64,000 nucleotides of DNA from Chrysophaeum taylorii (taxonomy: Eukaryota; Sar; Pelagophyceae; Pelagomonadales; Pelagomonadaceae): assembly GCA_029834535.1 (NCBI GenBank), contig JAQMWT010000318.1, positions 124,001-188,000 on the forward strand, read 5' to 3'. Both the position numbers and the translations under genes were made by a program. This document shows positions 15,891 through 51,171 of the stretch, one piece after another. The stretch's first letter is position 1; each line of letters starts with the position of its first letter. The notes beneath the pieces were generated by a model. That model worked only from the letters and a program-made list of their open reading frames with translations. It was not told the DNA's origin and searched no databases.

Positions 15891-16009
15891 CCGGTTTAAA
15901 ACATGTACTAAAACTAAACCCTGACCTTTCATTTTATGAAAACCAACTTTGCTACGAGAGGGTCAAGATTATCTAACAGTTCTTCCCCCAAAACAAAACA
16001 AAACAAAAC

Positions 16010-17905
16010 ATGAAACAAAACATGCTGAAGGCTGCGTGCTTGGCTGGCGATGTCCGTGCCGTGCGGCGGCTGCTGGATTCGTGTTCTTCTTCTTCTTCTT
16101 CCGACGTGAACCAGGTTTATGATGACGGCGCGTACTCACCCCTCATTGCGGCGAGCTTGTGCGGCCACCTCCGCGTCGTTCGGCTCTTAGTCTCGAAAGG
16201 CGCCGACGTGAACTTGGTCGCTAAAAACGGTTGGTCGGCGCTCTCTGCCGCGAGTCAGAACGGCCACGTCGAGGTCTTACGTTTCCTGGTCTCAAAAGGC
16301 GCCGACGTCAATCGGGTCGACGATAACGGTTTTTCGGCTCTTTTCGCCGCGAGTCAGAACGGCCGCGTCGACGCGGTTTCCCTGCTGCTCGAGATGACCG
16401 GCGTCGACGTAGACCGCGCCGCCAACGATGGTTCGACGCCGCTCTGCGTGGCCAGCTTTAAAGGATTTGTCGCCGTCGTCCGATTGCTACTTTCGCGCGG
16501 CGCCGACGCCAACAAAGCCGACGGAGACGGTTGCTCGTCTCTTCACCTCGCGTGTCACGAGGGCCACGTCGACGTAGTTCGGTTATTGCTCGAGCACGAC
16601 GCCGACGTCGACCGCGCCAAGGTGGTTCACGGCTCCTCGTCTCTTCACCTCGCGAGCCAGCAAAGCCACGTCGACGTGATTCGATTATTGCTCGAGCACG
16701 ACGCCGACGTCAACCGCGCCAGGGACGTCGACGGCGCCTCGTCTCTTTACATCGCGAGCGGCTTGGGCTACGTCCAAGTAGTTGAGTTATTGCTCGAAAA
16801 CGGCGCCGACGTCAACCAGGCCACCAACGATGGTGCCACGCCGCTGTGCGCGGCGAGCAAGATGGGCTACGTCGAAGTGGTTCGAGTATTGCTCGAAAAC
16901 GGCGCCGACGTCAACCAGGCCGCCAACGATGGTGCCGCGCCGCTGTGCGCGGCGAGCAAGATGGGCTACGTCGAAGTGGTTCGAGTATTGCTCGAAAACG
17001 GCGCCGACGTCAACCAGGCCAATGAAGACGACGGCGGTTCGTCCCTGCATTTCGCGAGCCTCGCGGGCCGCGTCGAAGTAGTTGAGTTATTGCTCGAGAC
17101 GACCGGCGTCGACGTAGACCGCGCCGCCAACGATGGTTCCACGCCGCTCTGCGTGGCCAGCCATAACGGCTTTGTCGCCGTCGTCCGATTGCTACTTTCG
17201 CACGGCGCCGACCCCAAAAACCGCGGCAAAGATACCTCTCCGCTGTGCGAGGCGAGCCACCAGGGCCACTTCGAAGTAGTTCGATTGTTGCTCGAAAACG
17301 GCGCCGACGTCAACCACGCCAGAGACTTCGACGGCTTTTCGTCGCTTCACCTCGCGAGCCTCAAGGGCCACCTCGAAGTAGTTCGATTATTGCTGGTGGA
17401 CGGTGCCGACGTCGACCGAACAAACGACGATGGCGCCTCGCCGCTTTGTCTCGCGAGCTATTCTGGCCAAGATTCCGTCGCCCGACTATTACTGAAACGC
17501 GGCGCCGACGTCAATCATCTCGCTCGTCACGACCTCTCGCCGTTGCATCTCGCCAGTTACAATGGTTACGTCGACGTCGTTCGGTTATTGCTTGGGTACG
17601 GCGCCGACGCCCGCCGCGTGGATTCGTACGGCATGACGCCCGTCGATGCGGCGCGCGCCAGTGGCCATCATGCCGTCGTTGCCCGGCTACGAGCTACCCG
17701 ATGTCTTCTCGACCACCTCGTCTTCGATTTATCTTCTTCTTCTTCTTCTTCTTCCGGAGAGGATAATGATACTCAGCTTTTGTTGGTTCGAGAAGAGCCC
17801 CGCACCACGAAGAAGTGTCCGCACTGCAATCGTCGACGACGACGCCTCTACGACGACTCCGACTCCCGCAGGGAATGTCCTTCCTCCCTCCCAGAGACTA
17901 AGTAA
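16010..17905 (+). CDS. Ankyrin-repeat protein, 17 repeats (ANK copy 1)
   Basis: An intact 631-residue frame with no intron. Seventeen ankyrin repeats run from about residue 4 to 565, each with the usual G-x-x-x-L-x-x-A-S and V-V-R-L-L-L-x-x-G-A-D-V-N pattern. A serine run (about residues 573-582, coded by TTC/TCT triplets) and an acidic patch follow. The tail is basic and contains TTKKCPHCNRRRRR, a possible half zinc knuckle. There is no signal peptide or membrane segment. Ankyrin stacks bind other proteins, and nothing in the sequence shows the partner or pathway. The ATG follows CCCCCAAAACAAAAC repeats about 120 bases after the 3' LTR of fossil C1. The next in-frame ATG is only four codons on, so the start is not certain. 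Repeats 9 and 10 are almost identical, a sign of recent internal duplication. Confidence 0.9.
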   Translation: MKQNMLKAACLAGDVRAVRRLLDSCSSSSSSDVNQVYDDGAYSPLIAASLCGHLRVVRLLVSKGADVNLVAKNGWSALSAASQNGHVEVLRFLVSKGADVNRVDDNGFSALFAASQNGRVDAVSLLLEMTGVDVDRAANDGSTPLCVASFKGFVAVVRLLLSRGADANKADGDGCSSLHLACHEGHVDVVRLLLEHDADVDRAKVVHGSSSLHLASQQSHVDVIRLLLEHDADVNRARDVDGASSLYIASGLGYVQVVELLLENGADVNQATNDGATPLCAASKMGYVEVVRVLLENGADVNQAANDGAAPLCAASKMGYVEVVRVLLENGADVNQANEDDGGSSLHFASLAGRVEVVELLLETTGVDVDRAANDGSTPLCVASHNGFVAVVRLLLSHGADPKNRGKDTSPLCEASHQGHFEVVRLLLENGADVNHARDFDGFSSLHLASLKGHLEVVRLLLVDGADVDRTNDDGASPLCLASYSGQDSVARLLLKRGADVNHLARHDLSPLHLASYNGYVDVVRLLLGYGADARRVDSYGMTPVDAARASGHHAVVARLRATRCLLDHLVFDLSSSSSSSSGEDNDTQLLLVREEPRTTKKCPHCNRRRRRLYDDSDSRRECPSSLPETK

Positions 17906-17996
17906 TTAATTATAATTAATTAATTAATTAATTAATTAATTAATTAATTAATTAATTAATTAATTAATTAATATCCATGGTGAATTAATTTATTAA
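17906..17996. repeat. TTAA microsatellite after ANK copy 1
   Basis: About 20 copies of TTAA/TAAT directly after the stop codon. ANK copy 2 also ends in a shorter, interrupted TTAA tract, so the duplication reached into it. Confidence 0.95.
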
Positions 17997-18714
17997 TTAC
18001 CATGGTGCGAGTTGGAGGAGGTAGACAGGGATGAGGCGGTGGAGAATGGAGCGCGCACCGTTGGAGTTGACAGGGCGTGGGTTTCGAAGGAGCACGACGG
18101 AGATTTATCCATGTGGCCGACGGTGGCCGATGGTCTAGAAGTAGATAGCGGACGTCCCGTCGCGGTCGACGGTCGAGCGGGGTTCGGGTCGAGGACGACC
18201 CGCACGAAGAGCGAGGCGTGGCGGTGGTTGCGGGCTCCGTTCCCTCGGCGATGGCCAGACCGCGGCCACGGGCGGTCGTCGTGGACGCGCGCGGGCGGCT
18301 CGTCGGCGCGTAGGCGCACCGGTCGCGGCGACGACGGGGCGTCTGTCGTAGAAGGCAAAGCGGAGGCGGCGAGTCCCAGGACGTCGCGTGACCACCATCT
18401 ACCAAGCCGAAATCGCGGTAGCAGACGCGTCGAGCTCGAAGACTCGTCGCGCCGGCGACGTCGTCGCGGCCTTCGTCGACGCCGGCCGCGACTTTACGGC
18501 GAGCCGTTGTCGCCCGCGGGGGAGAGTCCGAGGCCGCGGTCGGGACGGCGGTGGCCGCTCGCAGCGGCGACGAAGACGCCGGCACGCATCGTATCGAAGC
18601 GCTGGCGGACGCGTCGAGCTCGACGCGCCGCCGAGTTTTTATTTCGGGTTGGTCGACTGGACGTCAACCCGCGGGCGAGTCCGAGTCCGCGGTCGCGACG
18701 GCGGTGGCAATTAA
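17997..18714. other. GC-rich island between two TTAA tracts
   Basis: This block is markedly richer in G+C than the sequence around it, and reading frames stay open on both strands (18012-18731 plus, 17968-18585 minus). The translations are arginine/alanine/proline-rich without any recognised domain. Long overlapping frames are expected by chance in such sequence. No gene is called. Confidence 0.4.
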
Positions 18715-18860
18715 TATTATTAATTAATTAATTATAATTAATTAATTAATTAATTATAATTAATTATAATTAATTAATTAATTAATTAATTGCTCGACGC
18801 GCCGCCGAGTTTTTATTTCGGGTTGGTCGACTGGACGCCAACCCGCGGGCGAGTCCGAGT
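18619..18860. repeat. Direct repeat of about 70 bp around a TTAA tract
   Basis: The block starting CTCGACGCGCCGCCGAGTTT occurs at about 18619 and again at about 18791, with the same following sequence to GCGGGCGAGTCCGAGT. The two copies are separated by TTAA repeats, consistent with slippage or unequal exchange at the microsatellite. Confidence 0.9.
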
Positions 18861-18980
18861 GAATTAATTAATTAATTAATTCATTCATTCATTAATTCAT
18901 TCATTAATTAATTCATTAATTAATTCATTAATTCATTAATTAATTCATTAATTCATTAATTAATTAATTAATCAATTAAT
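18715..18980. repeat. TTAA/TTCA microsatellite field
   Basis: Long runs of TTAA interspersed with ATTCATTC and ATTAATTCATT units extend up to the first tandem Helitron-like unit. Confidence 0.9.
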
Positions 18981-18994
18981 TAATCTTCTTATCT

Positions 18995-20059
18995 TCCTAA
19001 CTACTAATCGACAGATGTTTGTCTGTTTGTTTGTTTGTTTGTTTGTTTGTTTGTTTGTCCCTCGATTTAGGGTAAGGATCAGGTAGGCGCGAGAGTAAGG
19101 ATCAGGTAGGCACGAGAGCCAGGCAGTGATCCTCAAGCCGTCTACGGCGACCTCGCAGACTATTTCCACGACCCGCGGCGGCTCTTTCAGCGCGCCATTC
19201 TCACGCCCCGTCGAAACGATGTTGTCGATGCTGACAACGCGCGCATGACCGCGGCCTTTTTTTCCCGGAGACGAGGCGTCGGAGTTCTTTTCGGCTGACT
19301 AGGCTGGGTCGGAAGACGACGCCTCGCTCTTTACAGTAGAGTTTTCAACTCCCTGACAACCAACGGCATGCTGACTTTGATCGCGAGCTTAATGTCTTCG
19401 CAACCTCGACCCGTCGCACGGCCACTGCAACGGTACCAGATACATGATCGATCGTGTCGTTGTCACCGAGGCTCCTCCAACCTGTATCCCGTAAGGCCCG
19501 CCTACGCCAAACGATCAACAAGAGCCAGGACCAGACGCCCCGCGAGGTCGGCGTCCTCTTGCCCAAGCCCGTCTTCTGCCACGTCCAGCTCTACGTGGCT
19601 CTCTGTCGATCGGCAACCCCGAGGATATCGTCTTCTGAGTCGACGACTCCACCCTACCCCACACGTGCTGCGCAATACCGATAAGCCCCCTCCCGGCGTC
19701 TACACGCGCACGGTAGGTGAACTTACTGGGACCAGGTGAACTTACTGGGGTTTGAGATTGGGACTAGGTGAACTTACTCGGACCAGGTGAACTTACTGGG
19801 ACCAAGTGAACTTACTGGGGTTTTAGAGGAACGCAAAGTTAGCGGCGTGTACGGATCAAAGCAGCTTCGATTGGCGGAGGTGAGAGCGACGAGCTCGAAG
19901 GAGAGTGGGGTGAGTAGATGTGAGCACGAGTGGGCTTACGCCGAACTTACTGGGGTTAGAGATTGGGACTAGGTGAACTTACTGGGACCAGGTGAACTTA
20001 CTGGGGTTAGAGATTGGGACCAGGTGAACTTACTGGCGAACTTACTGGCCTGCACTTGT
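18995..20059 (+). mobile_element. Helitron-like tandem unit H2
   Basis: Begins TCCTAACTACTAATCGACAG, then a (GTTT)n tract and CCCTCGATTTAGGGTAAGG. A decayed helicase tail follows (about 19130-19700), then a GGTGAACTTACTGG motif array (19705-20045) and the end GGCCTGCACTTG. In the helicase part one can read pieces matching the Pif1-like helicase of Helitrons: a FHDPRRLFQRAILTPR-type segment, LNSLTTNG, an INKSQ(G/D)QTPREVGVLLP core and the LYVAL motif. These lie in different frames, so no functional protein is made. No Rep domain is present. It is the first of four units of about 1.05 kb in head-to-tail order. Confidence 0.75.
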
Positions 20060-21096
20060 CTTTCTTAACTACTAATCGACAGATGTTTGTCTGTTTGTTT
20101 GTCCCTCGATTTAGGGTAAGGATCAGGTAGGCGCGAGAGTAAGGATCAGGTAGGCGCGAGAGCCAGACAGTGATCCTCCAAGCCGTCTACGGCGACCTCG
20201 CAGACTATTTCCACGACCCGCGGCGGCTCTTTCAGCGCGCCATTCTCACGCCCCGTCGAAACGATGTTGTCGATGCTGACAACGCGCGCATGACCGCGGC
20301 CTTTTTTTCCCGGAGACGAGGCGTCGGAGTTCTTTTCGGCTGACTAGGCTGGGTCGGAAGACGACGCCTCGCTCTTTACAGTAGAGTTTTCAACTCCCTG
20401 ACAACCAACGGGATGCTGACTTTGATCGCGAGCTTAAAGTCTTCGCAACCTCGACCCGTCGCACGGCCACTGCAACGGTACCAGATACATGATCGATCGT
20501 GTCGTTGTCACCGAGGCTCCTCCAACCTGTATCCCTTAAGGCCCGCCGACGCCAAACGATCAACAAGAGCCAGGGCCAGACGCCCCGCGAGGTCGGCGTC
20601 CTCTTGCCCAAGCCCGTCTTCTGCCACGTCCAGCTCTACGTGGCTCTTTGTCAATCGGCAACCCCGAGATATGCTCTTCTGAGTCGACGACTCCACCCTA
20701 CCACACGTGCTGCGCAATACCGATAAGCCCCTCCCGGCGTCTACACGCGCACTGTAGGTGAACTGGGACCAGGTGAACAGGAACCAGGTGGGCTTAGGGT
20801 TAGGATTGGGACTAGGTGAACTTAGTGACCAGGTGAACTGAGACCAAGTGAACTTACAGGCTTTAGAGTAAACTCAAAGCTTAGCGGCGTGTGCGGATCA
20901 AAGCAGCTTAGATTGGCGGGGTGAGACGACGAGCTCAAAGGAGAGTGGGGTGAGTGGGTGTGGGTTTACGCCGAACTATAGAGATTGTGTTTACGCCGAA
21001 TTTACTGGGGTTAGAGATTGGGACTAGGTGAACTTAATGGGGTGAAAATGCTGGGGTTAGAGATTGGGACTAGGTGAACTTACTGGCCTGCACTTG
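20060..21096 (+). mobile_element. Helitron-like tandem unit H3
   Basis: Same layout as its neighbours: start TCTTAACTACTAATCGACAG (one change from the usual TCCTAAC), helicase tail about 20160-20750, motif array about 20755-21085, and end GGCCTGCACTTG. The helicase core INKSQGQTPREVGVLLP is read near 20560-20610. The motif array is shorter and more degenerate than in H2. Confidence 0.75.
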
Positions 21097-22153
21097 TCCT
21101 AACTACTAATCGACAGATGTTTGTCTGTCTGTGTGTTTGTTTGTCTGTCTGTCTGTTTGTCCCTCGATTTAGGGTAAGGATCAGGTAGGCGCGAGAGTAA
21201 GGATCAGGTAGAAGCGAGAGCCAGACAGTGATCCTCCAAGCCGTCTACGGCGACCTCGCAGACTATTTCCACGACCCGCGGCGGCTCTTTCAGCGCGCCA
21301 TTCTCACGCCCCGTCGAAACGATGTTGTCGATGCTGACAACGCGCGCATGACCGCGGCCTTTTTTCCCGGAGACGAGGCGTCGGAGTTCTTTTCGGCCGA
21401 CTAGGTTGGGTCGGAAGACGACGCCTCGCTCTTTACAGTCGAGTTTTGAACTCCCTGACAACCAACGGCATGCTGACTTTGATCGCGAGCTTAAAGTCTT
21501 CGCAACCTCGACCCGTCGCACGGCCACTGCAACGGTACCAGATACATGATCGATCGTGTCGTTGTCACCGAGGCTCCTCCAACCTGTATCCCTTAAGGCC
21601 CGCCGACGCCAAACGATCAACAAGAGCCAGGGCCAGACGCCCCGCGAGGTCGGCGTCCTCTTGCCCAAGCCCGTCTTCTGCCACGTCCAGCTCTACGTGG
21701 CTCTCTGTCGATCGGCAACCCCGAGGATATGCTCTTCTGAGTCGACGACTCCACCCTACCCCACACGTGCTGCGCAATACCGATAAGCCCTCCCGGCGTC
21801 TACACGCGCACTGTAGGTGAACTTACTGGGACCAGGTGAACTTACTGGACCAGGTGAACTTTGGGTTAGGATTGGGACTAGGTGAACGACCAGGTGACTT
21901 ACTGAGACCAAGTGAAGTTACTGGGGCTTTTAGAGTAAACTCAAAGCTTAGCGGCGTGTGCGGATCAAAGCAGCTTAGATTGGCGGGGGTGAGAGCGACG
22001 AGCTCAAAGGAGAGTGGGTGGGTGGGTTTACGCCGAACAGAGATTGGTTTCGCCGAATTTACTGGGGTTAGAGATTGGGACTAGGTGAACTTAATGGGGT
22101 GAAAATGCTGGGGTTAGAGATTGGGACTAGGTGAACTTACTGGCCTGCACTTG
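21097..22153 (+). mobile_element. Helitron-like tandem unit H4
   Basis: Start TCCTAACTACTAATCGACAG, GTTT/GTCT tract, helicase tail about 21225-21815, motif array to about 22140, end GGCCTGCACTTG directly abutting the next TCCTAAC. H4 and H5 share the same small differences (for example GATCAGGTAGAAGCGAG), so they probably arose from each other most recently. Confidence 0.75.
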
Positions 22154-22951
22154 TCCTAACTACTAATCGACAGATGTTTGTCTGTCTGTCTGTTTGTTTG
22201 TCTGTCTGTCTGTTTGTCCCTCGATTTAGGGTAAGGATCAGGTAGGCGCGAGAGTAAGGATCAGGTAGAAGCGAGAGCCAGACAGTGATCCTCCAAGCCG
22301 TCTACGGCGACCTCGCAGACTATTTCCACGACCCGCGGCGGCTCTTTCAGCGCGCCATTCTCACGCCCCGTCGAAACGATGTTGTCGATGCTGACAACGC
22401 GCGCATGACCGCGGCCTTTTTTTCCCGAAGACGAGGCGTCGGAGTTCTTTTCGGCCGACTAGGTTGGGTCGGAAGCCACGCCTCGCTCTTTACAGTCGAG
22501 TTTTGAACTCCCTGACAACCAACGGCATGCTGACTTTGATCGCGAGCTTAAAGTCTTCGCAACCTCGACCCGTCGCACGGCCACTGCAACGGTACCAGAT
22601 ACATGATCGATCGTGTCGTTGTCACCGAGGCTCCTCCAACCTGTATCCCGTAAGGCCCGCCGACGCCAAACGATCACCAAGAGCCAGGGCCAGACGCCCC
22701 GCGAGGTCGGCGTCCTCTTGCCCACAAGCCCGTCTTCTGTCACGTCCAGCTCTACGTGGCTCTCTGTCGATCGGCAACCCCGAGAATATGCTCTTCTGAG
22801 TCGACGACTCCACCCTACCCCACACGTGCTGCGCAATACCGATAAGCCCCCTCCCGGCGTCTACACACCCACTGTAGGTGAACTTACTGGGACCAGGTGA
22901 ACTTACTGGGGTTAGAGATTGGGACTAGGTGAACTTACTGGCCTGCACTTG
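22154..22951 (+). mobile_element. Helitron-like tandem unit H5, short array
   Basis: Start and helicase tail (about 22285-22875) as in H4, but the motif array is only about 70 bases long before GGCCTGCACTTG. It ends directly at the left breakpoint of ANK copy 2: the following TTCTTCCCCCAAAAC is shared with the sequence before ANK copy 1. Confidence 0.75.
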
Positions 22952-22971
22952 TTCTTCCCCCAAAACAAAAC

Positions 22972-24861
22972 ATGAAACTAGACATGCTGAAGGCTGCGTG
23001 CTTGGCTGGCGACGTCCGTGCCGTGCGGCGGCTGCTGGATTCGTGTTCTTCTTCTTCCGACGTGAACCAGGTTTATGATGACGGCGCGTACTCACCCCTC
23101 ATTGCGGCGAGCTTGTGCGGCCACCTCCGCGTCGTTCGGCTCTTAGTCTCGAAAGGCGCCGACGTGAACTTGGTCGCTAAAAACGGTTGGTCGGCGCTCT
23201 CTGCCGCGAGTCAGAACGGCCACGTCGAGGTCTTACGTTTCCTGGTCTCAAAAGGCGCCGACGTCAATCGGGTCGACGATAACGGTTTTTCGGCTCTTTT
23301 CGCCGCGAGTCTGAACGGCCGCGTCGACGCAGTTTCCCTGCTGCTCGAGATGACCGGCGTCGACGTAGACCGCGCCGCCAACGATGGTTCCACGCCGCTC
23401 TGCGTGGCCAGCTTTAAAGGATTTGTCGCCGTCGTCCGATTGCTACTTTCGCGCGGCGCCGGCGCCAACAAAGCCGACGGAGACGGTGGCTCGCCGCTCT
23501 GCATGGCGAGCGAGAAGAGACACGTCGATGTGGTTCGGTTGTTGCTCGCGAACGGTGCCGACGTCAACCACGCCAAGGACGGCGACGGCTCCTCGTCTCT
23601 TCACCTCGCGAGCCAGCAAAGCCACGTCGATGTGGTTCGGTTGTTGCTCGAGCACGACGCCGACGTCAACCGCGCCAGGGACGTCGACGGCGCCTCGTCT
23701 CTTTACATCGCGAGCGGCTTTGGCTACGTCCAAGTAGTTGAATTATTGCTCGAAAACGACGCCGACGTCAACCAGGCCACCAACGATGGCGCCTCGTCTC
23801 TTTACATCGCGAGCCGCTTTGGCTACGTCCAAGTAGTTGAGTTATTGCTCGAAAACGACGCCGACGTCAACCAGGCCGCCAACGATGGCGCCTCGTCTCT
23901 TTACATCGCGAGCGGCTTTGGCTACGTCCAAGTAGTTGAGTTATTGCTCGAAAAGAACGCCGACGTCAACCAGGCCACCAACGATGATGGTGTCACGCCG
24001 CTGTGCGTGGCGAGCAAGATGGGCTACGTCCAAGTAGTTGAGTTATTGCTCGAGACGACCGGCGTCGACGTAGACCGCGCCGCCAACGATGGTTCGACGC
24101 CGCTCTGCGTGGCCAGCCATAACGGCTTTGTCGCCGTCGTCCGATTGCTACTTTCGCACGGCGCCGACCCCAAAAACCGCGCCAAAGGTACCTCTCCGCT
24201 GTGCGAGGCGAGCCACCAGGGCCACTTCGAAGTAGTTCGATTGTTGCTCGAAAACGGCGCCGACGTCAACCACGCCAGAGACGTCGACGGCTTTTCGTCG
24301 CTTCACCTCGCGAGCTTCAAGGGCCACGTCGAAGTGGTTCGATTATTGCTGGTGGACGGTGCCGACGTCGACCGAACGAACATCGATGGTGCCTCGCCGC
24401 TTTGTCTCGCGAGCTATACTGGCCAAGATTCCGTCGCCCGACTATTACTCAAACGCGGCGCCGACGTCAATCATCTCACTCGTCACGACCTCTCGCCGTT
24501 GCATCTCGCCAGCTGCAATGGTTACGTCGACGTCGTTCGGTTATTGCTTGGGTACGGCGCCGACGCCCGCCGCGTGGATTCGTACGGCATGACGCCCGTC
24601 GATGCGGCGCGCGCCAGTGGCCATCATGCCGTCGTTGCCCGGCTACGAGCTACCCGATGTCTCCTCGACCACCTCGTCTTCGATTTATCTTCTTCTTCTT
24701 CTTCTTCTTCCGGAGAGGATAATGATACTCAGCTTTTGTTGGTTCGAGAAGAGCCCCGCACCACGAAGAAGTGTCCGCACTGCAATCGTCGACGACGACG
24801 CCTCTACGACGACTCCGACTCCCACAGGGAATGTCCTTCCTCCCTCCCAGAGACTAAGTAA
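22972..24861 (+). CDS. Ankyrin-repeat protein, 17 repeats (ANK copy 2)
   Basis: An intact 629-residue intronless frame, very similar in DNA and protein to the 16010-17905 gene. It has seventeen ankyrin repeats, a serine run, an acidic GEDN patch and a basic tail with TTKKCPHCNRRRRR. It differs mainly in repeats 6 and 8-11. Here repeats 8, 9 and 10 are near-identical (NDGASSLYIAS-type with GYVQVVELLLE), while in copy 1 repeats 9 and 10 are a different homogenised pair. Homology to the upstream side of copy 1 ends 21 bases before the ATG, exactly at the end of Helitron-like unit H5. Its promoter must therefore lie in that repeat or be missing. Function is unknown beyond protein binding. Confidence 0.88.
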   Translation: MKLDMLKAACLAGDVRAVRRLLDSCSSSSDVNQVYDDGAYSPLIAASLCGHLRVVRLLVSKGADVNLVAKNGWSALSAASQNGHVEVLRFLVSKGADVNRVDDNGFSALFAASLNGRVDAVSLLLEMTGVDVDRAANDGSTPLCVASFKGFVAVVRLLLSRGAGANKADGDGGSPLCMASEKRHVDVVRLLLANGADVNHAKDGDGSSSLHLASQQSHVDVVRLLLEHDADVNRARDVDGASSLYIASGFGYVQVVELLLENDADVNQATNDGASSLYIASRFGYVQVVELLLENDADVNQAANDGASSLYIASGFGYVQVVELLLEKNADVNQATNDDGVTPLCVASKMGYVQVVELLLETTGVDVDRAANDGSTPLCVASHNGFVAVVRLLLSHGADPKNRAKGTSPLCEASHQGHFEVVRLLLENGADVNHARDVDGFSSLHLASFKGHVEVVRLLLVDGADVDRTNIDGASPLCLASYTGQDSVARLLLKRGADVNHLTRHDLSPLHLASCNGYVDVVRLLLGYGADARRVDSYGMTPVDAARASGHHAVVARLRATRCLLDHLVFDLSSSSSSSSGEDNDTQLLLVREEPRTTKKCPHCNRRRRRLYDDSDSHRECPSSLPETK

Positions 24862-25070
24862 TTAATTAATTTATTAATGAATTAATTAATGCCCATCATA
24901 GTTGCGCGAGCACTCCTCCAACGTACTTGGAGACCGATGGCAGACTTTTCGCGAGAAAAGTCCTCCTACGGCCATTTTGCAGCGGCAAAGGCGCTGCTCT
25001 GTGGCCGTCCCTTTCGCTTATCAGCTTCGCTTGGCTTCGGCCCTAAATATATATAAAACCGGAAATTGGC

Positions 25071-27763: not shown

Positions 27764-28952
27764 ACAAGTGCAGGCCAGTAAGTTCACCTAGTCCCAATCT
27801 CTAACCCCAGTAAGTTCACCTGGTCCCAGTAAGTTTCATATAAGTTCACCTGGTCAGTAAGTTCACCTAGCTCACACCAACTCCTTCGAGCTCGTCGCTC
27901 TCGCCTCCGCCAATCTAAGCTGCTTCGATCTGCACGCGCCGCCAACCTTTGAGTGAGTTTACTCTAAAAACCCTTTGCTCTAAAACCCCAGTATGTTCAC
28001 CTGGTCCCAGTTTCACCTGGTCACTCAGCTCACCTAGTCCCAATCTCCAACCCCAGTAAGTTCACCTGGTCCCAGTAAGTTCACCTACAGTGCGCGTGTA
28101 GACGCCGTGAGGGGGCTTATCGGTATTGCGCAGCACGTGTGGGGTAGGGTGGAGTCGTCGACCCAGATGAGTATATCCTCGGGGATGCCGATCGACAGAG
28201 AGCCACGTAGAGCTGGACGTGGCAGAAGACGGGCTTCGCCAAGAGGACGCCGACCTCGCGGGGCGTCTGGCCCTGGCTCTTGTTGATCGTTTGGCGTCGG
28301 CGGGCCTTAAGGGATCCAGGTTGGAGGAGCCTCGGTGACAACGACACGATCGATCATGTATCTGGTACCGTTGCAGTGGCCGTGCGACGGGTCGAGGTTG
28401 AGAAGACTTTAAACTCGCGATCAAAGTCAGCATGCCGTTGGTTGTCAGGGAGTTGAAAACTCTTACTGTAAAGAGCGAGGCGTCGTCTTCCGACCCAGCC
28501 TAGTCAGCCGAAAAGAACTCCGACGCCTCGTCTCCGGGAAAAAAAGGCCGCGGTCATGCGCGCGTTGTCAGCATCGACAACATCGTTTCGACGGGGCGTG
28601 AGAATGGCGCGCTGAAAGAGCCGCCGCGGGTCGTGGAAATAGTCTGCGAGGTCGCCGTAGACGGCTTGGAGGATCACTGTCTGGCTCTCGCGCCTACCTG
28701 ATCCTTACTCTCGCGCTGTCAGCATCGACAACATCGTTTCGACGGGGCGTGAGAATGGCGCGCTGAAAGAGCCGCCGCGGGTCGTGGAAATAGTCTGCGA
28801 GGTCGCCGTAGACGGCTTGGAGGATCACTGTCTGGCCTCTCGCGCCTACCTGATCCTTACTCTCGCGCCTATCTGATCCTTACCCTAAATCGAGGGACAA
28901 ACAAACAAACAGACAGACAGACAGACAAACATCTGTCGATTAGTAGTTAGGA
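27764..28952 (-). mobile_element. Helitron-like unit H6
   Basis: Minus-strand unit with start TCCTAACTACTAATCG (28952), helicase tail (about 28860-28090), motif array (28090-27780) and end GGCCTGCACTTG (27764). An internal direct duplication repeats about 130 bases (28590-28710 and 28725-28860), similar in place to the duplication in H1. Flanks differ from those of the other units, so the two ends are real element boundaries. Confidence 0.72.
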
Positions 28953-30428: not shown

Positions 30429-31587
30429 TCCTAACTACTAATCGACAGATGTTTGTCTGTTTGTCTTTAAATGTCGACTGCTAAGAGGGGGGGGTGTGTG
30501 GGGAGCATGAAGGATGTGGGTGGGTTTGTGGGGTATGAGGGATGTGCCTGACGGGCGGAGATAAGTACGCGGGACCTTTGTTTGTTTGTTTGTCCCCCGA
30601 TTTAGGGTAAGGATCATGTAGGCCCACGAGCCACACATTGATCCTCCAAGCCGTCTACGGCGACCTCGCAGACTATTTCCACGACCCGCGGCGGCTCTTT
30701 TAGCCAGCGCGCCATTCACACGCCCCGTCGAAACGATGTTGTCGATGCTGACAACGCGCGCATGACCGCGGCCTTTTTTTCCCGGAGACGAGGCGTCGGA
30801 GATCTTTTCGGCCGACTAGGTTGGGTCGGAAGACGACGCCTCGCTCTCAAGAGTCGAGTTTTGAACTCCCTGACAACCAACGGTATGCTGACTACTTTGA
30901 TCGCGAGCTTAAGGTGTCTTCGCAACCTCGATCCGTCTCGCACGGCCACTGCAACGGTACCAGATACATGATCGATCGTGTCGTTGTCGCCGAGGCTCCT
31001 CCAACCTGTATCCCTTAAGGCCCGCCGACGCCAAACGATCAACAAGAGCCAGGGCCAGACGCCCCGCGAGGTCCGCGTCCTCTTGCCCACAAGCCCGTCT
31101 TCTGTCACGTCCTGGAGCTCTACGTGGCTCTCTGTCGATCGGCAACCACCCCGAGAATATACTCTTCTGAGTCGACGACTCCGCCCTACCCCACACGTGC
31201 TGCGCAATATCGACCGATAAGCCCCCTCCCGGCGTCTACACGCGCACTGTAGGTGAACTTACTGGGACCACGTGGACTTACTGGGGTTTGAGATTGGGAC
31301 TAGGTGAATATAGTGACCAGGTGAACTTACTGGGACCAGGTGAGCTTTCTGGGGGTTTTAGAGTAAACTCAAAGGGTAGCGGCGTGTGCGGATCGAAGCA
31401 GCTTGGATTGGCGGAGGCGGCAGCGACGAGCTCGAAGGAGTGGTGTGAGCACGAGTGGGTTTACGCCGAACTTACTGGGGTTAGAGATTTGGACTAGGTG
31501 AACTTACTGGGGGGACCAGGTGAACTTACTGGGGTTAGAGTTTGGGACTAGGTGAAGTTACTGGCGAACTTACTGGCCTGCACTTGT
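30429..31587 (+). mobile_element. Helitron-like unit H7
   Basis: Start TCCTAACTACTAATCG, helicase tail about 30640-31240, motif array 31245-31575, end GGCCTGCACTTG. Its GTTT tract is interrupted by an LTR-derived segment (about 30464-30576). The helicase core INKSQGQTPREV is still readable near 31040, but the parts are out of frame. Confidence 0.72.
30464..30576 (+). mobile_element. LTR-end fragment inside a GTTT microsatellite
   Basis: About 110 bases match the 3' end of Copia fossil C1 (GTCGACTGCTAAGAGG, then GATGTGCCTGACGGGCGGAG to ACGCGGGACC; compare 15465-15530). The fragment is bounded on both sides by GTTT units. Confidence 0.7.
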
Positions 31588-43383: not shown

Positions 43384-45958
43384 ATGGCGACTCACGACCC
43401 ACAAGTCCCGAGTCTGGAAGTAGCGACGCAATTCGCTACACAACAAGCTCTCATGCAACAGTTCAAAGCCGATTTCTTTGATCAGTTCGTCGCTGATTAC
43501 CAACGGCGCAAAGCTAATTTCTTTGATCAACTCGCCGCTGATCAAGCTATTCTCAAAGCCAGAATCGCTGCTGACTACGCTGCTCTCGGAGACAAAATCG
43601 CTGCCGCAATCGAAGCTCAAGACGAGCAACTCGATCAAGAAGTGCAACTCGAACAAGACGAGCAATTTGAAGAACAAGCTCCCCAACCAGCTGTTCTTCC
43701 GGCAACTCCCCTCAAGCACAAGCAAACTTCTCACGAAGTCGCGACCCAAGGCCCGATCATCTCGATGGTCACCCCCCCCTCCTACTGTTCAAAACGTTCT
43801 CGAACATGAACAGAACCCACCTCATGCCGACAACCCCACCGGATGTCAAACACCCCACGGCAAAGTCTCAGACCCCACTGCCTTCCCTCCGGACCCAGGC
43901 ATTGCCAAGTTTTCTCCACAACCTGGCACACCCCACATTCACGAGGACACTCCACCTTGTTCGAATATCGCACCAGCAATGTTGTTGAACACAACACCAC
44001 CAATAAACATTCCTCCCTTCACTCCACCAACCCCACCGGAGCCTCCACCTCCTTCACTGGAGCCTAACTCCCCACTATCGGCGACTCCCACTACACCATC
44101 CATACCAGTTGCCCAACATCCTGGTCAACCCCCTCGCCGCACCACTCATCTCCTTGATGATCATGCCACCTACGGACATGACGGCCCCGGCACCGTCATC
44201 CCTGACCAAACCCCCACCGCGGCTCAAGCTTCTGCCGCCCCACTGTCGGATTCCCTTGTCCGATATCCATCATCTTCCGCAAGTCAATCTCCTCAGGACT
44301 TTCCTCTCCATCCACAAGACCATGCCACCTACGGCCACGACGGCCCCGGCACTTCCATTCCTACCGCAGCTCCTTCCGCAGCTCAAGCTACTGCCGCCCA
44401 ACCAACGGACCCTCCTGACAGACCTTCATCACCTTTCGAAAGTCGTCGCTGTTCCTCCGATTCGCACCTTCACCAGCGTGACTACGCATTCCACGACTAC
44501 GACCATCCCTCCGTCTCCACTCAAGCAAACACCCACCTCCTTTCTCAAAATTCCAATGCACCTCCGTCTGTGCTCCAACGCGCGTTGGCCGCCACTAAGG
44601 CTGCATTCCGCTCTCAAACCGCTGAATTGGCCGCAACCAAGGCCACGCTCATTCGCATGGACAATGCCTTGTCCTCCACAGCCGCCAAACTCAACATCAC
44701 CGACGCCGCCCTGGCTTTCGCCACTGCCCAGCTCGCCATCCAAGCCGACGAACTGGTCTCCACCCACGCTGAACTCCATCTCACCCACACCCAGCTCAAG
44801 GCACTCGAAACTGCCCACGCTGACATCCGCAACTCCCACCTTGCAACCAACGCCGTCCTTCAAACCATTCTTACCTCCTTGGATGCCACCCACCCCACCC
44901 AAGATGCTGCATCGCATCTTTCACCTTCTTTCCCCATCCACAACCAACCCTCACCCCCTTCCGAACCAACCTCCAATGCCTCTCCCCCGATTCTCCCAGA
45001 GTATCATTACCAACTCCACGGATGCCCTGGACCCGGTTCTCCTGGTTCACCACCCACTCCGCCTACCTGTTCTCAACCCCCCGCAATCTCTGGCCCCTCC
45101 TCCTCTGCCAAATCACTCTTCGCCTCTCTGGCACCCCCTGAACCCCTTTGCACCCGCTCGCCTTATCCGCCACCTGGTTCATTCCAACTCGACCACATCC
45201 CCGCGTCCGAGTTGCGAGGGCGTACATTCAACACCGGCGACCGTACCCCTACCACCAGCGACGATCACCACGTGCAAAGTCCCACCAAGAAACAAGACCA
45301 CCAACATCAAGAGTCGACAAGTTCCGAATTATCAAAAGACAGCTCTTTGCCTGATGGTCATGCTCACCATCATGCTGCCAAGACATGCACAAGGGCTTCT
45401 TCTCTCTTCGGGCACAACGGCCCAGGAAGCAATCTTGTCGAAGAAGCACCAAGCCACCTCGATCCCACTTTCGACAAGTCAAAGAACAAGACACCTCGAG
45501 ATGTTCCCGAGTATTATGCCTACATCGACTATGGCAACCACACCCAAGAACCTAAGGCTCCGCCGTATTCTATGCCCCAGGCACAAGTGCCGCAGGCCAC
45601 TGACAACAACCCCTCGGATTCAGCCCCCTGGTACGATGCATACAGCGAAGAAGCAAGACCCACTTCACTAGTCTCGAAGATGGTCTCCTCGACCATTCCA
45701 GATCAGCCGCCTGATCCAAGCACCATCAATGCCCCAGCAATGCCGTATCCACAAGGACAAGACACGCTGTCAACGGTCCCATGGTCAACATACTCGCAGG
45801 CACTCACCGCACCTGCAGGTATCAGCTCAGATTCACCAGGCACTCCCGCCTTGTTTGATATCTCTCGATCAGCAGCTCCCGATCACTTCGAAGTTGGTCC
45901 CCCCTCGCCGCCTCCTTTCCACGAAGACAGGCGCGCACTGACGCTCACCGGCGCTTGA
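43384..45958 (+). mobile_element. Gag-like body of LTR fossil
   Basis: Fossil coding stretch following the LTR block. The first part is acidic and helical (repeated KADFFDQFVADYQ-type and LAADQAILKARI-type segments), followed by a long proline/histidine-rich part with two HATYGHDGPGT repeats. A regular alanine/leucine-rich helical zone lies near 44575-44890 (LAATKA, STAAKL, ATAQLAI, STHAELHLTHTQL) and probably forms a coiled coil. It looks largely whole over 2.4 kb, with about one break. A decayed copy is at 7151-8560. Assignment as gag rests on position after an LTR, not on a domain match, so a host-derived passenger gene remains possible. Confidence 0.45.
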
Positions 45959-48900
45959 TGCTACACCCACCATCCACCTTCTCGGTCGGATGCACTGGAT
46001 GACACTGCTCAGCAGGTTGCATGGGCCCATCTGCGACCACCATATGTCTTCGCACGAGCACCAGTCGCAGCACCTGATCACCCGCTCCACAACTTTCAGT
46101 CAGAGGACGCAATCCTTTCGGCTGCAGATCCTTATGTCTCACCGCGACCAAGCCTCTGGAAAGCTTTCCCCATGGCTGCAGTATCAGACACAGACTTCGA
46201 AAGTTCTGAACGACCCGATCAGCCGCAAACTTTGCACGATTTCATTGCGACCACTTCGGTCCTTTATGTCCCTTTGCATAGCTCTCTTCTGGACGCCACA
46301 CGCTTGCGCTGCCTCCGGAAAATCGACGTTGCGCTCTCAGAAAACATTCTCCGCGCACTATGCACAGACTCGCTCCAACTGAACCACTTCTGTAAGCATT
46401 TTCGCATCACTGGAAAGTACGACAAACGTTCCACGTCAGCTGCCGGCTCCACCACAAACATGCACCCAGTCACGTACGTTGCCTCCCTCAAAAGCGTCTT
46501 ATCGCTCAGCACGTCACTCCTCATTTGAGGACGCATGTGACATGCCCGCACCTTCGAATGATCAACACGCCTAAGGGCAACCCTGGTCACTACGGCACTC
46601 ACTGCTCTGGTCCCAGCATCTCCGCTATTGAGGATGCACCCAGCAGGACTGACACTTTCATCGCCTTTGGTTCAACCGCACTCTCCTTCGGCGACCCCTC
46701 TTTTCGAATTCCGGTACTGGACCCCAAGCATTTCAGGCCGGATACTCTCCACCACGGGATCTCAGCTCACGCGCCCATCTGCCCTACCTTGCAGACAGGT
46801 CAGCCGCAAGCCACACCCCTTTTTTTGGCACTGACTTCGGACCACCCGCATCACGCGGTTTTGCTCTAGGAGCATGACACGCTTCTCGATGCTCTCCGCG
46901 TCACCGCGACACTCGTCATTTCCACCGACACTCCGCGCCGCAACGTATCTCACGACCTTCAGATCACCAACACAAATCGCTCGCGCCAGCACCACGTCGC
47001 GCACGCCTTACGAGGGCGTATTTCAATTGGTGACCTCACAGGTCTTTCGATGCATTTTCCGACGTTCGACTTTGAACTTACGAGTTACTTGAAGGCAATC
47101 CCCAATGCCAAGACGTCTGAAGCTGCGCAATCATGTCTCTGGAACTCCAAAGCCACAGAAAGTGCCAGACAAAAGAAAGCACTCAACTCTCAACAGCTAC
47201 TCAACAGCTACTCATAATCTCGCACATAGCAACCAGTACTATCTCGCAGTCTCTATTGGACTACAAGACGAAAGATAAGACTACAACGGCCAGCTACACC
47301 AGCCAGCTCATTGATGTAGCAGACGAGACAACGCAAACCAACTGCACAACACGTTTCCAGAATATGCCGACGATGCTCAGGTCCAACGCTCAATCACTCG
47401 ACCACGCACACGTTCTGTCACCTGACCTTGCACTGCTACTGGCTCCTGTCCCATTCATAACTGATGCACCCCATCCGATGGACCAATCCCCAAGAAATGT
47501 CCCGCTCGCAGAAGCACGACCACAGGACACAAAGGTACGTCATGAAGACACGGGTAAGCGCACCACGATCATGCGCACAAGCTCATTGCGAATATCCGAT
47601 CACGACGAGACGAAGCTACAGCTTTGCTTGTTCCCTTCGCCTCTGGAAGACAAAGGCCGTCTTTCAGCCTCCCAGGCTCCACTCGACCCTTCCCTGTCGC
47701 TGCAATCCGTATTAGCACAGACGATCTCGCCTCCCTGCACGACTGCAGATCAGGCACAAGCCAATGTCAGCACTCTGCAGAGTTATGCGCACCCGCTGGA
47801 ATCTTACCAGCACGGTTACCTCAGCCAGTCAGGTCACTGCACCACCTCGGTCTCCCCTGACACCAGGTCGACGTATCGCTCATTCGCGACCACCTCAAGT
47901 CATCTAAAGGACGACTATGAACTCGAGCATGAACTCATTGCAACGCTTGAGTCATCATACCCAAGAAGGAATCCTACTTTGGAGTCACCTCAGCCACTCC
48001 CACAGGAACTTTGGCCACCAGACGCCACCCATGTGCCCGTGGTTTCTCCATTGGTTTCCTCCAAAGCTATTGACTGCAGCAGATACAATATGCAACCTTC
48101 TCATGCGACTATACCCGCATTCTCGTTTGGGACGCAAGCATTTACTTCATGTCAGTTGTTAACGCTCATAGTACCGCGACACACGGCAACCAAGATAGAA
48201 GTAGACTGCGTTCCACCCTCATCTCTGAGCGCCACCCCCGACATGCTGCTGTTCCCGGCACTACTAGCCAGTCCCACCACGTCTGATTCAGCTCCCATCG
48301 CTTTGTATGACGTCATATGTCATATTCCGATTAGAGCCCAGACACCGCACAGGCTACAATGCACTCGCGACAGCACGCTCACCGCCCCTCTCGGTTTGGA
48401 CTACAAACCTTGCGCCATACCCATATGGTACACTCACAGTCAACCGAGACGCACGCTCGCTTGTCGCGCAGTACGATGCCCTTTTGATTCAAGATACGCA
48501 GAACACTGTCGTCTCAGCCACACCTGAAGCGGCTCCTCCGACCGCCGCCCGGATCTGCGCTCGTTTCGCAATCATGGTCTCTCCGTCTCACCGGCAATTC
48601 GAAGATTTAACCCAGTTCGAATTGCGAGGGCGCATTAGTTTTCCACCGACGACAAGATTCGTTTCGATTCGTATCAGTCATGCCTCCTATGGCTACTCTG
48701 GCTACATCGGAACTCAATTCAAGGCACGTACCGAAGTCCCTCTTTCTAAGGACCTCTGTCACACGCCAAGACCTGATGAGTATTCGTCGTTCCTCCCAGC
48801 TCCAACGCGACGACCAAATCCCCGACGATTCGTGATGACACTAAGTTCCGTCATTAATGCAATTCAGAGCCACCCACGCTCTTCCGTCAGTCTCTCGCAG

Positions 48901-50478: not shown

Positions 50479-51171
50479 TCAGTCAAAGTAATCTGCCTTG
50501 AGTTTGCGGGTGAGGTGGTAGCCCGAGGAGGCGGCGAGGGCGATGTTGACTGCCATGAGGTTGTAGTTGACGGGGTTGATGACGACCGAGTAGCGGGACC
50601 AGATGACGCCGGTGGCGGTGAGGGCGGTGGTCTGGGCGAGGGAAATTTTGTCGGTCGGACGGTCGACGTCGGCGAGATTAGCCAGAGACAAAGCCCACTT
50701 GAAGGTCGGCGCCCAAAAGTGAATGTAGAAGGGCCCCGCGGGATGGAGGGCGACTTTCTCCAGAGGCGTCGCGGCAAGAATCCGTTGAAGTGGCGTCGAG
50801 ACCGCGACGGATCCGACGACGGCCGCGCCGACGACGGCCGCTCGCGTGCCCAACGTCTTGATCTCCTGCGCCGCGCCGGGGTCCGTCTCGAGCTTGTATT
50901 CGAGCGCGCGCCGCAGCTGGTTGAGCTGCGCGCAGATATTAAAGGAATGGCAAGCAAAAAGTAAGTAGTTTCGAGGCTGTACAGCCCAAGCAAAACGGAC
51001 GAAAAGCGAGGAGTACACAACCATTGTCCCAGTCATCGGAAGCGAAATAATCTCCGGGCCTTTGTTCGTGGCGTCGTACACGGCCGAGCCGACGAGGCCC
51101 CAATTCGCGACCGGACCCCAGAAGTGAGTTGTTAGAGGACCCGTCGCCGACGTCAGCCATTTCGTTGCCAT
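50479..51171 (-). CDS. Fused mitochondrial pyruvate carrier (MPC1-like + MPC2-like in one chain)
   Basis: An intact, intronless 230-residue protein. Residues about 15-90 read as an MPC1-type domain: HFWGPVANWGLVGSAVYD, GPEIISLPMTGTMVVYSS, RFAWAVQPRNYLLFACHSFN. Residues about 148-228 read as an MPC2-type domain: FWAPTFKWALSLANLAD, RPTDKISLAQTTALTATG, IWSRYSVVINPVNYNLMAVN. Each domain has the hydrophobic helices expected of the family, and the linker (about 95-145) has an AAVVGAAVVGSVAV stretch that could be an extra helix. MPC1 and MPC2 normally are separate subunits forming a heterodimer in the inner mitochondrial membrane that imports pyruvate with a proton. Here both halves are covalently joined. 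The ATG at 51171 gives a short N-terminus without an obvious presequence, which is normal for MPC. No frameshift is present, so the gene is probably functional. Confidence 0.93.
   Translation of the reverse strand: MATKWLTSATGPLTTHFWGPVANWGLVGSAVYDATNKGPEIISLPMTGTMVVYSSLFVRFAWAVQPRNYLLFACHSFNICAQLNQLRRALEYKLETDPGAAQEIKTLGTRAAVVGAAVVGSVAVSTPLQRILAATPLEKVALHPAGPFYIHFWAPTFKWALSLANLADVDRPTDKISLAQTTALTATGVIWSRYSVVINPVNYNLMAVNIALAASSGYHLTRKLKADYFD

Follow-up and report, generated by a model that had tools for sequence, protein, structure and literature searches.

A predicted single-chain mitochondrial pyruvate carrier in Chrysophaeum taylorii, with MPC1-like and MPC2-like halves joined by a putative seventh helix

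Passages of PMC10909473 and PMC12007569 present the mitochondrial pyruvate carrier (MPC; SLC54) as a drug target that is difficult to purify in its two-chain form and over whose topology there was long disagreement. In the human MPC1/MPC2 and MPC1L/MPC2 heterodimers (PDB 9giv, 8yw6 and 9mnw), according to passages of PMC12007569, the protomers, each of three transmembrane (TM) helices, are related by a pseudo-twofold axis normal to the membrane; their N-termini lie in the intermembrane space and their C-termini in the matrix. The two chains bring together six TM helices and N-terminal amphipathic helices, without a linking helix. A 3+1+3 layout in one chain is found in SWEET and cystinosin, seven-helix members of the TOG superfamily with a substrate and membrane different from those of MPC, in which, per the same passages, an extra TM helix connects the domains. 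A fused MPC is already on record from diatoms: in one sentence of a 2016 paper, Traller et al. (PMC5124317) noted that Cyclotella cryptica (g13004.t1) "and other diatoms" have a fused MPC1+2 gene. Here, we describe a gene that likewise joins MPC1 and MPC2 in a stramenopile alga, located in a 64,000-nucleotide stretch of the Chrysophaeum taylorii genome (contig JAQMWT010000318.1, positions 124,001 to 188,000; hereafter the window).

The gene belongs to another lineage than the diatom gene, which is known to us by description only and for which the consulted part of PMC5124317 describes no linker or topology. Passages of PMC10909473, PMC12007569, PMC7699257, PMC7350735, PMC10100952 and PMC6517818 make no mention of a natural MPC fusion, and we recognised no description of a linker helix or a seven-helix MPC among open-licence PMC titles and abstract openings, a body of text with no preprints and few subscription papers; the seven-helix architecture was thus not found described.

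An uninterrupted 230-residue frame had been proposed from the DNA letters in an original prediction, and the open reading frame lies exactly at that place, with neither a stop nor an intron inside it in the genomic DNA, and with all of the sequence motifs that had been quoted. The gene and its two halves are as follows.

50479..51171, minus strand: complete fused MPC1-MPC2 gene, a single open frame with an ATG start, 230 amino acids and a TGA stop.
50878..51135, minus strand: MPC1-like half, residues 13–98; best PDB match human MPC1 (phmmer, E 2.9e-23).
50506..50766, minus strand: MPC2-like half, residues 136–222 by match; best PDB match human MPC2 (phmmer, E 8.4e-23).

A Pfam scan found the MPC family (PF03650) in two stretches of the protein, scoring 211 bits overall where 27 is the cut-off, and a six-frame search of the genome scored the two halves at 111.9 and 105.6 bits. 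Together with the phmmer matches, these results confirm the original description of an MPC1-like domain followed by an MPC2-like one. A TGA that appears within the first genome match is the natural stop codon of the gene (50479–50481), seemingly internal because the match extends beyond the gene end. With a score above the domain cut-off, one MPC1-type and one MPC2-type unit within one gene and the His/Lys site described below, the protein belongs to the MPC family (PF03650, SLC54) and is a fused, single-gene member of it. Membership of the SWEET family (MtN3/saliva, PF03083) was rejected, as the Pfam scan returned MPC only at E up to 1; the likeness to SWEET is one of architecture alone.

To place the protein among its relatives, we searched with the full-length sequence, which gave 1262 matches, and aligned the best 120 with the query (121 sequences). 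All 120, at 54–81% identity to the query, contain both domains from at least the second MPC1 helix onwards: residues 46–227, from that helix to near the end of MPC2, are present in 121/121 apart from small linker gaps at residues 97–99 and 135–136, and 110 of the 121 reach the FW motif at residues 17–18. Judged on sequence, a two-domain match with this common layout lies far beyond chance. The original prediction had suggested that this organism may make a covalent carrier; the fusion stands, its being peculiar to the organism does not, given the same layout in the 120 best-listed homologues. Source labels include Aureoumbra lagunensis, Rhizochromulina marina, Ectocarpus and Mucochytrium quahogii as well as the dinoflagellate-type names Polarella glacialis, Alexandrium catenella and Symbiodinium necroappetens, among others, many rows being nameless; Aureoumbra and Rhizochromulina are the nearest named relatives among the matches listed, which points to a pelagophyte- or dictyochophyte-like alga. 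By the groups to which the named genera belong (pelagophyte, dictyochophyte, labyrinthulomycete and so on), the fusion also occurs in brown algae, dinoflagellates and others, beyond diatoms. Several homologues carry transcript labels (MMETSP, EukProt), such as P0002 at 79% identity, so transcript-derived entries spanning both domains exist in relatives.

Substrate-site residues were numbered on the human proteins through the phmmer alignment, and their conservation was counted among the 121 fused sequences. Two of them are the following.

50947..50949, minus strand: His75, equivalent of human MPC1 His84 and MPC1L His86 (H in 121/121).
50698..50700, minus strand: Lys158, equivalent of human MPC2 Lys49 (K in 121/121).

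Passages of PMC12007569 identify His86 of MPC1L as a substrate and proton site and MPC2 Lys49 as the essential pyruvate-binding lysine, and also assign roles in the human carrier to an E51-K66 salt bridge, to cis prolines and to W82; passages of PMC10909473 implicate MPC1 Phe66 and MPC2 Asn100 in inhibitor binding. In the fused alignment, F57, P66, P200 and N209 are each present in 121/121, N23 in 116/116 and E40 in 113/118. Two sites vary: the equivalent of MPC2 K66 is K in 80/121, and that of W82 is tryptophan in 69 sequences and phenylalanine in 52.

Between the two halves lies a segment without counterpart in the human heterodimer, in which a helix and a charge-free core can be delimited.

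50803..50874, minus strand: linker helix, residues 100–123, from the AlphaFold helix and hydrophobicity; putative extra TM helix.
50800..50841, minus strand: linker core without charges, residues 111–124, AAVVGAAVVGSVAV, from the alignment of 121.

Aspartate, glutamate, lysine and arginine are absent from columns 111–124 in 119/121 sequences, the exceptions being P0056 and P0107, and the core is 14 residues long in 116/121, 15 in four and 28 in P0056. The median best 17-residue hydropathy of the linker region is 1.72 versus 0.44–1.27 for each of the six MPC helices, a comparison that favours the linker somewhat because 39 columns were searched for it against 21–25 per MPC helix; for the query alone, the highest window value in the linker is 1.85, versus 1.44 in the next best segment.

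An AlphaFold model of the 230-residue chain, built from the query and 111 homologues after nine of the 120, including several shorter ones, had been removed by hand, has a predicted local distance difference test score (pLDDT) of 93.9 and a predicted template modelling score of 0.86. It places helices at residues 15–36, 44–63 and 69–96 in the MPC1 half, then at 100–123 and 125–133, then a short one at 138–141, and at 150–167 (with a one-residue break, 150–156 and 158–167), 178–197 and 203–228 in the MPC2 half, whose predicted fold thus extends to residue 228. The model therefore has the three helices per half of the human MPC fold and, with the linker helix, the 3+1+3 arrangement of a seven-helix chain. 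The Mucochytrium protein, modelled from an alignment with the query and 62 other homologues, has the same predicted layout with a linker helix at 118–144 (pLDDT 92.0); the two models are partly dependent, because their alignments have members in common. Foldseek matched the query model to human MPC1 and MPC2 chains with E from 5.3e-5, 37–61% identity over the aligned parts and root-mean-square deviations of 1–2 Å in many rows and up to 8.4 Å, while whole-chain matches covering nearly the entire model were to SWEET, cystinosin and the KDEL receptor; SWEET and cystinosin, among the best of these, are yet only 6–16% identical to the query in the structural alignments.

Both protomers of the human type are parallel with three TM helices, and linking two such protomers C-terminus to N-terminus therefore takes one more crossing of the membrane, so that a conserved uncharged helix is to be expected in the linker. 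The original prediction had singled out the topology of the linker as the crux, and predicted helix, hydropathy and structural matches all fit an added crossing: on the model, the linker resembles a single additional TM helix, by which both three-helix halves would come to face the same way. The conserved linker helix also speaks against the older two-helix topology of Mpc1, because such a topology would need no linking helix, and this argument holds whichever side the N-terminus faces.

Next, we looked for separate MPC genes elsewhere in the organism by searching the 70.8 Mb assembly (697 contigs), using the Pfam MPC family and the protein sequence of each half as queries. No second MPC locus was found in this assembly, although a gene of tiny exons or one outside the assembly could escape; each half recovered its own locus and, weakly, the opposite half. 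The SWEET family, used as a positive control of the six-frame search, gave 9 matches at 5 loci.

Taken together, sequence, conservation, the search of the organism's own genome and structure prediction indicate a covalent 1:1 MPC1-MPC2 chain, as had been predicted, and the gene very probably encodes a single-chain mitochondrial pyruvate carrier composed of MPC1, a linking seventh helix and MPC2. The protein is conserved and very probably functional, its function being predicted from its human counterparts. It would reside in the mitochondrial inner membrane and transport pyruvate as one unprocessed chain, in which the seventh helix connects an MPC1 unit with an MPC2 unit, each of three membrane helices; by crossing the membrane, the linker would take the chain back over, so that both units would be oriented alike. 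The two units could then close face to face round one binding site formed by His75 of the MPC1 half and Lys158 of the MPC2 half, working as in the human heterodimer by rocker-switch alternating access with proton-coupled pyruvate transport. Such a chain would have its 1:1 stoichiometry built in and would not need to search for a partner.

Other readings of the locus were weighed against this single-chain importer. The protein could be a true carrier whose main job is the export of pyruvate from mitochondria, as part of glycolysis can run in stramenopile mitochondria, and export has indeed been suggested for diatoms by Traller et al. in the same passage as the fusion (PMC5124317); we regard this as unlikely, since 121/121 sequences keep the residues that form the proton and substrate sites in the human importer, and a proton-coupled carrier, by the mechanism described in passages of PMC12007569, would favour import under the normal pH gradient. 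It is improbable that the linker lies on the membrane surface, or that the halves are antiparallel, with fused chains pairing between molecules. The linker core is short, and an inverted protomer model predates the structures (passages of PMC10909473), but hydropathy in the best window is higher for the linker than for the MPC helices, with the bias in that comparison noted above, and the single-chain matches to SWEET, cystinosin and the KDEL receptor over nearly the whole model fit parallel halves.

That both halves are complete MPC units would also suit a chain that is cut, or halves that are separately translated, leaving the working carrier a two-piece heterodimer, and some database entries hold about half a fused protein (for example P0128, P0239 and P0303). 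These entries, however, carry linker sequence and resemble broken gene models or partial transcripts, and a linker core of conserved length and without charges would be needless in a cleaved spacer, which makes a two-piece carrier improbable. An assembly or read-through artefact joining two adjacent genes was rejected as next to impossible, because the frame is open in genomic DNA without intron or stop and the same fusion, with an alignable linker, is repeated in the 120 best-listed homologues.

We also searched with each half separately, obtaining 1426 matches for the MPC1 half, of which the best 120 were listed, and 68 for the MPC2 half. Unfused-looking MPC1 occurs in Nannochloropsis, Triparma, Fibrocapsa and oomycetes among the MPC1-half matches listed, and unfused-looking MPC2 in Heterosigma, Globisporangium and Babesia among the 68; Toxoplasma has two separate MPC genes (passages of PMC10100952). 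Toxoplasma, oomycetes, Nannochloropsis, Triparma and raphidophytes thus hold the same family in unfused form, mostly with one partner of the two seen. Because unfused MPC1 or MPC2 is seen in several stramenopile lineages, the fusion is patchy within stramenopiles, as far as available entries go. A tail of at least 17 residues follows the third helix in 68 of 118 short MPC1 rows, and 17 of these tails are hydrophobic by a chosen threshold; by eye, the fused-type linker or the beginning of it can be recognised in 14 of the 17, whose rows therefore resemble fragments of fused genes or broken models of them, and the remaining three are P0188 and the alanine-rich P0226 and P0235. The spacing between two MPC1 motifs is 40 residues in all 114 measurable fused copies (of 121), and in the 118 short rows it is 39 in 89 and 40 in 23, with six not measured; a spacing of 40 is not unique to the fusion, because some of the 23 are green algae.

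Some of the short rows come from groups that show the fused form, or from close relatives of such groups. Triparma, a bolidophyte, has an unfused-looking MPC1 (P0156 and P0165), although the fusion is reported from diatoms, the sister group of bolidophytes; reversal, transfer or coexistence of both forms are candidate explanations. The dinoflagellate Symbiodinium sp. KB8 has a separate, stramenopile-like MPC1 of 122 amino acids (P0178) in a genus that otherwise shows the fused form, for which contamination or a second carrier gene are candidates.

To examine the origin of the fusion, we built trees of each half from 28/121 fused copies with either 28/118 short MPC1 rows (97 columns) or 20/68 short MPC2 rows (93 columns), picked for having names or for spread. 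In both trees, a single branch separates the fused copies from all others (100/100 for the MPC1 half, 100/98 for the MPC2 half), which gives good support, for the rows tested, to the fusion having arisen once. In a quick full-length tree of 118/121 fused proteins, a dinoflagellate-type clade of 52 rows (48 sharing a motif, four lacking it) lies inside the algal copies with Rhizochromulina-type rows, at 96 in the Shimodaira-Hasegawa-like approximate likelihood ratio test; in a careful full-length tree of 47 rows it lies inside as well (95/85, 96/88, 83/73), beside query/Aureoumbra-type rows. The dinoflagellate neighbour is likewise Rhizochromulina-type in the MPC1-half tree (83/83) and query/Aureoumbra-type in the MPC2-half tree (99/91), the latter as in the careful tree (83/73). 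Constrained alternatives were not rejected by the approximately unbiased test, with p 0.086 when 27 ochrophyte-type rows were held together and 0.163 for 15 pelagophyte/dictyochophyte-type rows, the constraint groups having been named after the quick tree had been seen and most rows being without an organism name. Acquisition by dinoflagellates from an ochrophyte is thus suggested, favoured by branch support and not established.

A scenario that we consider possible, and rather less than probable, is that MPC1 and MPC2 were joined through a newly gained membrane helix on a single occasion, in a common ancestor of several stramenopile lineages, and that the gene for this seven-helix carrier then passed from a pelagophyte/dictyochophyte-like alga into dinoflagellates, replacing the two-gene carrier still used by apicomplexans. 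If true, mitochondrial evolution would have independently repeated the step from 3-helix SemiSWEETs to 7-helix SWEETs.

The MPC1 half groups with some green-algal MPC1s, chiefly Tetraselmis (98/97), and not with the separate stramenopile MPC1s; we did not accept a green donor, because the columns are few (97), the stem is long and the bootstrap is not settled. The Tetraselmis sp. GSL018 entry that adjoins the fused half (P0126, 125 amino acids) is a green-algal MPC1 with the fused-type, one-residue-longer spacing, and could reflect contamination or transfer, or hint at where the MPC1 half came from.

A natural one-chain heterodimer would lend itself well to studies of structure and transport, and its conserved extra helix would serve as evolutionary evidence for three-helix, parallel protomers. 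It would also be a second example of paired half-transporters becoming one protein, and its presence in some stramenopiles and dinoflagellates, with separate genes in oomycetes, eustigmatophytes and apicomplexans, offers a discrete character for tracing algal gene transfer.

Elsewhere in the window, a scan with the bacterial code found no tRNA genes. The region 43478–48527 has a strong guanine-cytosine skew (-0.35 in 44001–48000) and long open frames of 826 and 464 amino acids, in which no Pfam family was found at E up to 0.001; it is possibly untranslated, strand-biased DNA. At 15999–24890 lie two ankyrin-repeat genes of 631 (16010–17905) and 629 amino acids (22972–24861), about 93% identical, between which copies of a block of about 1 kb stand in tandem from about 19040, 20084, 21097 and 22154. 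The block recurs at 27774–28716, inverted, and at 30604–31565, and the genes and block copies together form an expanding ankyrin cluster.
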